This document shows, piece after piece, positions 5,896 to 55,056 of a DNA stretch of 64,000 nt (within the stretch, counting starts at the first letter, position 1; every line of letters begins with the position of its first letter). This DNA is from Buchnera aphidicola (Hyalopterus amygdali). Lineage in GTDB: Bacteria > Pseudomonadota > Gammaproteobacteria > Enterobacterales > Enterobacteriaceae. The notes below the pieces were generated by a model. It was not told the origin of the DNA. It worked only from the letters and a program-made list of their open reading frames with translations, and did not search any database. Where the stretch lies: NCBI RefSeq assembly GCF_964059015.1, contig NZ_OZ060383.1, forward strand, positions 372,001 through 436,000, given 5' to 3'. The position numbers were made by a program, and so were the translations under genes.

Positions 5896-6849
5896 ATGAA
5901 AACATTTGCGATGCTCTTTCCAGGTCAAGGTGTACAATATATAAATATGTTATCTTCTTTTTTTAAAAAAAATAATAAAATTTTTGAAAAAAAATTTCAT
6001 GAAGCATCAGAATATATAAATTATAACTTATTAAGTATTTTTCAAGAAAAAAAAAATATCAACAACTATCAATACATACCATTAGCAATATTAACCTCAT
6101 CAATTGCAATTTATGAATTTTGGAAAGAAAAAAATGGACCACTTCCAAAATTAATGTCCGGTCATAGTTTAGGAGAATATTCAGCTCTTGTATGTTCAAA
6201 TGCCATTAAATTTCGTGATGCATTAAAAATAGTTAACCTAAGAAGTAAATTAATGCAAGATGTTATTATAAATAAACCATCTCTCGTACTTGCTATCATT
6301 GGTTTAGAACAAATGATTGTTAAAGATATATGTTCAAAATATTCACCAAAAATTGTTTCTATAGCTAGTATAAATTCGGAGGATGAAATTATTATTTCGG
6401 GAGATAAATCAGCAGTATATGAAGCAGGAAAAAATTGTAAAAAAAGGGGAGCTCATCGGATACTAAAACTAAATATCAATATACCTATACATAGTATTTT
6501 AATGAAGCCAATAGCAAAAAAACTTCAAGTTTTATTGAAAAAGATAAAAATAAAACCACCGATAATACCTGTAATTAATAATGTAGATGTTATATGCGAA
6601 ACCAATGAAAAAAAAATCAAAAATGCATTAATTAGACAAGTTTATAATACTGTTAGATGGAAAGAAATTATTGATTTAATAAAATCAAAGAACATTTTAA
6701 CAATGTTAGAAATAGGACCAAATAAAATTTTAACTAATTTAGTAAAAAAAAATAAAAATATAACTGCATTGAATACTAATAAATTAAATAGTTTTTTAGT
6801 AGCACTTAAAAAAATTAATATGAAAAATATGAAAAATAAAAAAAAATAG
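5896..6849 (+). CDS. fabD: Malonyl-CoA:ACP transacylase FabD
   Basis: Transfers malonyl from CoA to acyl carrier protein for fatty-acid elongation. Length 317 aa (E. coli 309). The motif FPGQGVQ at the N-terminus, nucleophile serine in GHSLGEYSA (about residue 92) and histidine in IPIHSILMKP (about residue 200) are all present. The true homologous part ends near 6819; the last nine codons (MKNMKNKKK, stop TAG at 6847) overlap the expected start of fabG in the same frame and arise from a 9-A run. See the fabG entry: a single -1 slip there would extend FabD into FabG. Confidence 0.95.
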   Translation: MKTFAMLFPGQGVQYINMLSSFFKKNNKIFEKKFHEASEYINYNLLSIFQEKKNINNYQYIPLAILTSSIAIYEFWKEKNGPLPKLMSGHSLGEYSALVCSNAIKFRDALKIVNLRSKLMQDVIINKPSLVLAIIGLEQMIVKDICSKYSPKIVSIASINSEDEIIISGDKSAVYEAGKNCKKRGAHRILKLNINIPIHSILMKPIAKKLQVLLKKIKIKPPIIPVINNVDVICETNEKKIKNALIRQVYNTVRWKEIIDLIKSKNILTMLEIGPNKILTNLVKKNKNITALNTNKLNSFLVALKKINMKNMKNKKK

Positions 6850-7562
6850 CATTAGTCACAGGTGCTAATCAAGGAATTGGAAAAGAAATTGCTAAAAAAT
6901 TATCAGAAAAAGGCATCAAAGTCATTGGTACATCTACTACTATAAATGGAGTTAAAATAATTAATCAATATTTAAAAAAAAACGGATTTGGCTTTGTATT
7001 AAACTTAAAAGATACTGATTCAATTCTAGAGAAAATGAAAGAAATTTATAAAAAAAACTATTCTATTGATATACTAATTAATAATGCTGGAATTAAATCA
7101 GATAACTTACTAGTTTATATGAATAGTAGGGAATGGGAAAATGTAATAAAAATTAATTTAACATCAATATTTTATATGTCTAAATCTGTTATCCGTTCTA
7201 TGATAAAAAATAAATATGGACGAATCATCACAATAGGATCCGTAATTGGTTCTATAGGAAATAGAGGACAAGTAAATTATAGTGCTTCAAAATCAGGATT
7301 AATTGGATTTCATAAGTCATTAGCATTAGAAGTAGCATCAAAAGGTATTACTGTAAACATTGTCGCACCAGGATTGATTGATACTCAACTAACAAAAAAA
7401 TTAAATATATTACAATATAAAAAACATTTATCTAATATTCCTATGCAAAGATTAGGAACAACAAAAGAAATAGCTGATGCAGTAATGTTTCTTTCTTCAG
7501 AAAAAGCATCGTATATTACTGGACAAACATTGCATATTAATGGTGGCATGTATATGCCATAA
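6829..7562 (+). CDS. fabG: 3-oxoacyl-ACP reductase FabG, start codon out of frame across a 9-A run
   Basis: NADPH-dependent reductase of fatty-acid elongation (short-chain dehydrogenase). From 6846 the frame reads IALVTGANQGIG (cofactor-binding TGxxxGxG), then NNAGI, the catalytic Ser in TIGSVIGS, YSASK (catalytic Tyr/Lys) and the C-terminal HINGGMYMP, so the body is intact. There is no ATG, GTG or TTG start in this frame before 7035: TAA at 6837-6839 closes it, and the natural starts (ATG at 6820 or 6829) are in the fabD frame. Nine A's lie at 6838-6846; ten would give MKNKKKIALVTG in frame. Expression probably needs RNA-polymerase slippage or -1 ribosomal slippage at A-AAA-AAA before the TAG, or initiation at ATA 6846. 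The first ATG in the correct frame, at 7035, would remove the Rossmann core. Confidence 0.85.
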
Positions 7563-41870: not shown

Positions 41871-43197
41871 TTATATGGATTTAATTGTATTTGAAATATC
41901 ATATGCTATTTTTTTTATCTGAACATAATTTTCCCCCTCGACCATAATACGAACATATGGTTCTGTACCAGATTTTCGTACAAGCAAACGACCTTTTTTA
42001 CCTAAAATATTTTTATATTTAAAAAAAATAGATTGAAATTTTAAATTTTTTTCAAAATTTAGATCTTTATTAAAAAAAACATTAAATAATATTTGTGGTA
42101 ACAACTTTATTTGATTAGATAAAAAATACAAAGATAAATTATTTTTAATCATAATTAATAATACTTGTAAACTAGCTATAATTCCATCTCCAGTAGAATG
42201 TTTATCTAATAAAATAATATGTCCTGATTGTTCTGCACCAAGAATCCATTTTTTCTCTTGCATTTTTTCATATATATAACGATCTCCTATATTTGCTGCA
42301 CAAAAAGGTATACCAAGTTTTTTCAATCCTAATACTAAACCTATATTAGTCATTAAGGTACCTACTACTCCACCTTTCAGTTGATTGTTTTTTAAATATT
42401 CTTGAGCAATTATGTAAATAATTTGATCTCCATTCACTTCGTTGCCCAAATGATCTACCATAATAACACGATCTCCATCACCATCAAATGCTAAACCAAT
42501 ATCAGCTTTTTTTAATAAAACTAATTTTTTTAAATCATAAACATTAGTAGATCCGGAATTTTCATTAATATTCATACCATTTGGAAAGATAGAAGAAGTT
42601 ATCACTTTAGCACCGAGATCTTCAAAAATTTTAGGTGCTATTTTATAAGTTGCACCATTGGCACAATCTAGTACAATAGTAAATTTAGATAAGTTAATAT
42701 TGCGAGGGAAAGTATTTTTACAAAAATTAATATACTTTTTTTTAGCATTTGTAATTTTTTCAGAAAAACCAAATACTCTCGAATAAGAAGAATCATACAA
42801 AGAATCGTTTAATTTTTTTTCAATAAAATTTTCTATTTCCTTAGTTAATTTAACACCATTACCAAAAAAAATTTTTATTCCATTATCATAAAAAAGATTA
42901 TGAGAACCTGAAATTACAATTCCAGCAGAAACATTCAAAGATCGCGTTAAATATGCAATTGCAGGAGTAGTTATACAACCTGCTAATAAAGTTGAAAAAC
43001 CTTTTGATAAAATTCCGAATTCTAAAGAGTACTGTAACATACATCCTGAAATCCGTGTATCTCTACCTATAATAATTTTTTTTTTTATTTTTACCTAATA
43101 CTATTGCAATAACTTGTCCTAATTTTAATAAAAAATCTGGAGTAATTGGTTTTTTTCCTACCTTACCACGTATACCGTCTGTTTGAAAATATTTCAT
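41871..43197 (-). CDS. glmM: Phosphoglucosamine mutase GlmM, frameshifted at an 11-A run
   Basis: Converts glucosamine-6-P to glucosamine-1-P for peptidoglycan. ATG at 43197 reads [22 protein letters not shown]... to residue about 40, then an 11-A run (sense strand, 43076-43086) shifts the frame into a TAG. The remaining 389 codons (from 43040, in the other frame) continue the homology: SLEFG...[22 protein letters not shown] metal loop, and [15 protein letters not shown] phosphate site. Ten A's would restore one ORF of about 442 codons (E. coli 445 aa). The catalytic-serine motif is also altered, GSHNLF for ASHNPF. Because the rest is intact, slippage rescue is plausible, but early pseudogene status cannot be excluded. 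E. coli folP, between glmM and ftsH, is lost. Confidence 0.88.
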
Positions 43198-54489: not shown

Positions 54490-55016
54490 ATATTAATTCA
54501 AAAAAACCAAATAATCCTATTATGATAGGAAAAATAGGACGAGCCTATGGAATATTAGGTTGGATAAAAGTTTTTTCTTTTACTGAAAAAAAAGAAAAAA
54601 TATTTTTTTATTTTCCATGGTTTATTCTAAAAAAAGAAAAATGGGAAACAATTCAATTTGATAAATGGAAAAAATATAAAAATAATTTTATTATACATAT
54701 AAAAAATATTTCTGATAGATCAATAGTTAGCACGTTCACTAACTCAGAAATTTTTATAGAAAAAAAAATATTACCAATATTAAAAAAAAACGAATATTAC
54801 TGGGATGACATTATTGGATGTGATGTATTTAATATAAAAAAAAAATATTTAGGAAAAGTAATCAATTTAATAAGAAGTCAAAATAGTGATATTTTAATCA
54901 TAAAAAATTATTTACAAAAAAATATTTCAGAAAAAATAATGATCCCATTTATACATAAAAAAATTGTTTGTAATATTAATATTAAAGATAAAATTATAGT
55001 AATTATATGGAATTAA
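54486..55016 (+). CDS. rimM: Ribosome maturation factor RimM, no canonical start codon at the expected place
   Basis: Helps 16S rRNA/30S head maturation with S19. Core [22 protein letters not shown] and the PRC-barrel part [13 protein letters not shown] match E. coli RimM. The first ATG is 54522, but homology (NPI before MIGKIG, as DPIVLGKMG in E. coli) extends upstream to about 54492 without ATG, GTG or TTG. Candidate starts are ATT 54492 or ATA 54486; the latter is 7 bases after AGAGG and overlaps the rpsP stop as ATAA, which could have arisen from an ancestral ATGA overlap by one G-to-A change. Start uncertain; product 165-177 aa (E. coli 182). Confidence 0.85.
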
Positions 55017-55056
55017 AAAAAAAACTAAAAATAATCAACAATGCAATATTAATTTA

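Follow-up and report, generated by a model that had tools for sequence, protein, structure and literature searches.

Slippage of RNA polymerase at poly-A runs is a phenomenon already known in endosymbionts: as Tamas and colleagues are said to have described in 2008, genes of Buchnera and Blochmannia that are frameshifted at a poly-A run are reportedly corrected by transcriptional slippage. Correction of endosymbiont poly-A frameshifts in this way is cited in the accessible text of both PMC5009743 and PMC3017870; the former puts the corrected share of transcripts from frameshifted endosymbiont genes at 12-50%, and the latter, dealing with Blochmannia A-run frameshifts that are possibly corrected likewise, cites 30% full-length transcripts. 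In Buchnera transcripts, according to the openly visible part of PMC5574713, homopolymers hold 151 of 157 insertions versus 16 of 57 deletions; the longer the homopolymer, the more frequent its insertions, with an exponential rise. That same part of the study also supplies counter-evidence: it reports no transcription error that restores a frame. For Buchnera fabG, we found no report of this frameshift in the open-access papers searched; the available text of PMC9116674 adds none, and a table in the available portion of PMC11188193 places fabG and fabD among the gene losses in Phyllaphidinae.

The locus considered here is the fabD-fabG junction of Buchnera aphidicola from Hyalopterus amygdali, which has a 646,967-base genome in three contigs; the window, that is, the whole stretch of DNA analysed, spans 64,000 nucleotides (Table 1). 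NCBIfam models identify both genes (TIGR00128 at 270.4 bits, cut-off 260.9, for fabD; the 3-oxoacyl-ACP reductase model TIGR01830 at 300.3 bits, cut-off 297.75, for fabG), Pfam is consistent with both names, and the nearest named FabG relatives are those of Buchnera of aphids. An earlier note on this DNA had claimed that fabG lacks an in-frame ATG, GTG or TTG ahead of its core and that the natural starts, at 6820 and 6829, lie in the fabD frame, followed by AAA-AAA-AAA-TAG. Direct reading bears this out, coordinates included: the fabG frame opens with AAA AAA ATA GCA TTA GTC, its first in-frame start codon is internal (7035, more than 60 codons in), and the fabD frame extends across both ATGs and the run before reaching its stop. 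With one extra A in the mRNA, the N-terminus of FabG would read MKNKKKIALVTG. In an intact relative, G025, the same ATGAAAAAT precedes an A10 run, and FabG begins MKNKKKTALITG; in most intact relatives, the ATG stands 18 nt from the reference codon, one more than ATG 6829 does here.

Table 1. Features of the fabD-fabG junction, in window coordinates
Feature	Position	Strand	Remarks
fabD (ACP S-malonyltransferase)	5896..6849	+	317 aa, ATG 5896 to TAG 6847-6849; TIGR00128, PF00698
ATG in fabD frame, candidate fabG start	6820..6822	+	26 nt 5' of ATA 6846; in-frame spacing would be 27
ATG in fabD frame, best candidate fabG start	6829..6831	+	17 nt 5' of ATA 6846
TAA shutting the fabG frame upstream	6837..6839	+	direct reading
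A9 run, proposed slip site	6838..6846	+	exactly nine A, direct reading
fabG (3-oxoacyl-ACP reductase) open frame	6840..7562	+	TIGR01830; best match among solved structures is 1i01
ATA, first codon of predicted database protein P0002	6846..6848	+	238 aa, MALVTG
TAG, fabD stop adjoining the run	6847..6849	+	direct reading

How, then, could FabG be made? We think it probable that fabG is one A short and is corrected by RNA polymerase, which would add an A in part of the transcripts. In the first codons of the gene, a coding poly-A run would have been shortened by one A, which RNA polymerase would put back in a fraction of the mRNAs; an A10 transcript, translated from ATG 6829 or 6820, would give full FabG (MKNKKKIALVTG...), and an A9 transcript would give FabD ending at TAG 6847 plus a mere short peptide from the ATG. 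Because fabD shares its frame with the ATG in this genome (G000), a slipped transcript would also let ribosomes coming from fabD make a FabD-FabG fusion. The frames, the recurrence of the frameshift, its restriction to runs of at least nine A and the conservation of FabG are observed; we infer the slippage itself, its rate, the ATG used and every protein product. The earlier note had attributed the one-base slip to ribosome or polymerase without choosing; the slip still offers the best reading, with the polymerase as its likelier agent.

Comparison across aphid symbionts points the same way. A table of fabG starts was drawn up for 58 species: 36 genomes of the genus, Pemphigus obesinymphae and 21 other reduced-genome species of the family. 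Left out were G041, G123, G259, G119 and G278, which have in-frame starts and were judged not Buchnera-like, and G279, which has the same FabG protein as P. obesinymphae; G065, G094, G098 and G154 were kept, all four with runs below nine A. The start is in frame in 47 of the 58 species and missing in 11: G000, G010, G004, P. obesinymphae, G237, G280, G281, G126, G290, G285 and G289, among which FabG protein identity marks G010, G281 and G285 as the symbionts of Rhopalosiphum padi, Thelaxes suberi and Floraphis choui. The loss is confined to long runs: fabG is out of frame in 0 of 34 species with up to seven A, 0 of 6 with eight and 11 of 18 with at least nine, so every start-less species has a run of nine or more and none of the 40 with shorter runs is affected. 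Seven species with runs of 9-11 A, G025 among them, have fabG in frame. This restriction to long runs is not in itself proof of rescue, because replication slippage and miscalls are likewise promoted by long runs. The frameshift is biased in phase as well: in 10 of the 11 start-less species, the closest ATG on the 5' side stands one base too near (at 17 nt in eight species, 26 in G281 and 14 in G126), and only G285 is in the other phase, a third-phase count of 1 in 18 runs that has p = 0.007 when related species are counted as independent. Since transcription errors in Buchnera homopolymers are far more often insertions than deletions, a gene that is one A short should be easier to correct than one that is one A long, which fits the count of 10 to 1; against this, one short is the same phase as two too many, and G285 is an exception.

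Could the ribosome slip instead of the polymerase? A -1 ribosomal shift on A_AAA_AAA would yield the same proteins, FabG from ATG 6829 or a FabD-FabG fusion; the direction is that of dnaX, the stop codon adjoins the run, -1 fits 10 of the 11 species, and a 7-bp stem in the best fold begins at the TAG. But this stem leaves no spacer, and the 84 nt downstream fold at -10.1 kcal/mol (z = -0.54), with 60 of 200 shuffles equally good. Inspection by eye finds no GGA or AGG, and thus no Shine-Dalgarno-like site, in 6800-6837. The heptamer is A_AAA_AAA instead of the shift-prone A_AAA_AAG, and the former is far less prone to shift in E. coli according to the accessible part of PMC5009743. Furthermore, the heptamer takes just seven A, yet fabG is frameshifted in 0 of the 40 species with fewer than nine. 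With the usual stimulators absent, a ribosomal shift finds little support, and we regard it as unlikely. The likeness to the dnaX site that the earlier note had drawn is weak for these reasons, and a dnaX-like programmed site was rejected: the stem is not significant, a Shine-Dalgarno-like site is missing, and the heptamer differs, the run being A9 followed by TAG.

The FabD-FabG fusion, the second product foreseen in that note, is possible on paper by one added A in the window species but not in 7 of the 11 frameshifted species. The window holds no continuous single frame for the two enzymes, TAG 6847 ending fabD. In G000, G280, G281 and G126, fabD stays open across the fabG ATG and the run as far as a stop at +1 or +7 behind the latter, so that a single extra A would make a continuous FabD-FabG frame in these four; in the other seven, the R. 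padi symbiont included, it would not. Among intact species, the fabD frame, taken here as the longest open frame and not by homology, ends past the run in 3 of 47, in another phase, compared with 4 of 11 (p = 0.02, from small numbers). A conserved fusion was therefore rejected, and since the fusion could form in 4 of 11 species only, it is unlikely to be a selected purpose and is probably incidental. A more elaborate proposal would have slippage at the junction split the operon, with unslipped transcripts giving FabD, slipped ones giving the fusion and free FabG, and run length setting the stoichiometry; this is doubtful, but if true, run length would govern the ratio of two fatty-acid synthesis steps. 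In a close relative represented by proteins alone (P0123 and P0007, each on a contig of 82,442 bases that is taken to be one and the same), FabD ends in KINIKYEE and the FabG prediction begins late. FabD-FabG proteins in a single frame are rare among database records; the best 120 of 1907 protein matches include seven near-full ones (P0124, P0125, P0126, P0136, P0160, P0163 and P0164), the only one with an organism name being P0125 (Salmonella enterica) and none being named Buchnera; some of these records may be sequence errors. P0124, P0125 and P0126 measure 554-558 aa and possibly carry such errors at the junction. In G030 (L022), G007 (L036) and G009 (L121), fabD overlaps the fabG start in a different phase and ends 20 nt past the fabG reference codon.

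If the upstream ATGs were irrelevant, FabG might initiate at a rare codon, ATA 6846 in the window, or inside its first strand. P0002 is predicted to begin at this ATA, the aligned codon is ATA or ATT in 7 of the 11 start-less species, and a TTG or GTG follows it at a distance of two or three codons in G010, G126, G281 and G237. However, the aligned codon is ACT in three species and GTA in one, for which reason ATA initiation was rejected as a general answer; G000 has no ATG, GTG or TTG from there until 7035; by alignment, initiation at the ATA would lose six residues ahead of residue 7 of 1i01; and a rare start does not predict that 10 of 11 species retain an ATG just one base nearer than usual. 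We consider initiation at such a codon quite improbable. To judge by this comparison, annotation often seems to misplace the starts of such genes, at ATA, TTG or internal codons.

Homopolymer miscalls are common, and the A9 might be one, the true genome having A10. Against this stand the presence of the frameshift in 11 species, P0003, a FabG from the R. padi symbiont that is truncated at its start and listed under both 'ncbi' and 'lgn' source labels, and two close relatives represented by proteins alone (P0007 and P0008, lgn, 90% identical), which begin at residue 26 of 238; a miscall is very unlikely. That fabG is a young pseudogene is barely credible: a frameshift is present and the start is missing, but the remaining 238 codons are open behind a single indel, dN/dS is 0.11-0.16 against G010, G001 and G008, and elsewhere the frameshift is common to supported clades.

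Judged by its codon substitutions, FabG is still under purifying selection. In 23 chosen pairs, for which synonymous sites are partly saturated, dN/dS is 0.11 for G000 and G010 (with 24/10/68 differences at the three codon positions) and 0.15 and 0.16 for G000 with G001 and G008; six pairs of intact genes give 0.14-0.28 and seven further pairs of frameshifted genes 0.14-0.32. Two of the latter exceed the intact range (P. obesinymphae-G280, 0.32; G281-G126, 0.31), a point that counts against rescue by slippage. The FabG tree, built from 59 rows of one short protein and unable to separate gain from loss, requires eight state changes, seven of which the starred branches make unavoidable. A clade with support 99/87 unites G280, G237 and P. 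obesinymphae, all A10 and all frameshifted, and another with 96/94 unites G290 and G289, both frameshifted; with eight changes and a supported A10 clade, the frameshift is therefore recurrent and in places inherited. Among relatives with DNA, the window species has no frameshifted sister; a common origin of its frameshift and that of the R. padi symbiont is unsupported, as G010 pairs with intact G008 (96/77). Features known from endosymbiont slippage genes are found here, namely a run of at least nine A and a single indel in an open, conserved gene, and sharing without decay is seen for the site overall (G280, G237 and P. obesinymphae). Since the same slip recurs at the same site in related symbionts, fabG probably needs polymerase stutter to be read correctly.

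Why fabG, when A-runs abound? An A9 run is in itself ordinary in this genome, and it is the location that is remarkable: the window has 60 A9 matches (both strands, overlapping) compared with 64.2 expected, and AAAAAAAAATAG occurs 31 times in the genome versus 12 for a reversed control. A general frameshift census, which covered 49 gene families, about 60 kb, in 19 genomes (931 cells, four without a match) and is blind to frameshifts within the first codons, finds a frameshift close to 22 of the 691 coding runs with nine or more A; at the fabG site, 11 of 18 species with such runs are out of frame, by a different test and in a different species set. Within the same 19 genomes, the comparison is 3 of 7 with 22 of 691 (Fisher p = 0.0013). 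In this 60-kb sample, 16 of the frameshifts near runs of nine or more A are one short and 4 are in the other phase, from seven and two families, respectively. A census of early runs finds the in-frame upstream start missing in 9 of 70, of which fabG accounts for two (G000 fabG not counted), trmD for five and other genes for two. The idea that fabG is the sole such site was dropped, trmD early A-runs also often lacking a start; fabG is a hotspot inside a general phenomenon.

Several other genes show comparable features. In the window, trmD (TIGR00088, 55007-55812) has no in-frame upstream start: ATG 55007 sits 17 nt 5' of the open frame with A10 (55015-55024) between them, a geometry like that of fabG, and the family profile starts at residue 12, so the affected stretch is a symbiont-specific extension. 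On the minus strand, a frameshift splits glmM (TIGR01455, 41880-43197) at A11 (43076-43086), near codon 40; 8 of 19 genomes, that of the window among them, carry a frameshift at the same position, at A9 or A11 and in two phases. The fabD gene itself is frameshifted near runs of 8-12 A, around codons 143-162, in G029 (L146), G012 (L149), G009 (L167), G034 (L173) and G017 (L176).

The fabG A-run of aphid symbionts is a natural allele series, with in-frame, one-short and other-phase members and runs from fewer than 6 to 12 A, and it allows a comparative test of whether polymerase stutter sustains frameshifted symbiont genes, a proposal to be set beside the one Buchnera transcriptome study (PMC5574713), whose accessible part describes no restored frame.

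How does the junction compare with described systems? It shares with E. coli dnaX an A-rich slip site and the -1 direction. It differs in its heptamer, A_AAA_AAA in place of A_AAA_AAG, in having neither a significant stem nor a Shine-Dalgarno-like site, and in the confinement of its frameshift to runs of nine or more A. The single-frame FabD-FabG proteins (534-560 aa) join these two enzymes in the order seen here, but their frame is uninterrupted, whereas a slip is needed in this symbiont. The slippage genes of Buchnera and Blochmannia are likewise those of AT-rich insect symbionts, in which one indel in a long coding A-run leaves the gene otherwise open and conserved and the state is present in more than one species; unlike them, fabG carries its run in the first codons, overlapping the end of the upstream gene so that a fusion is possible, and its site has been struck repeatedly across aphid symbionts.
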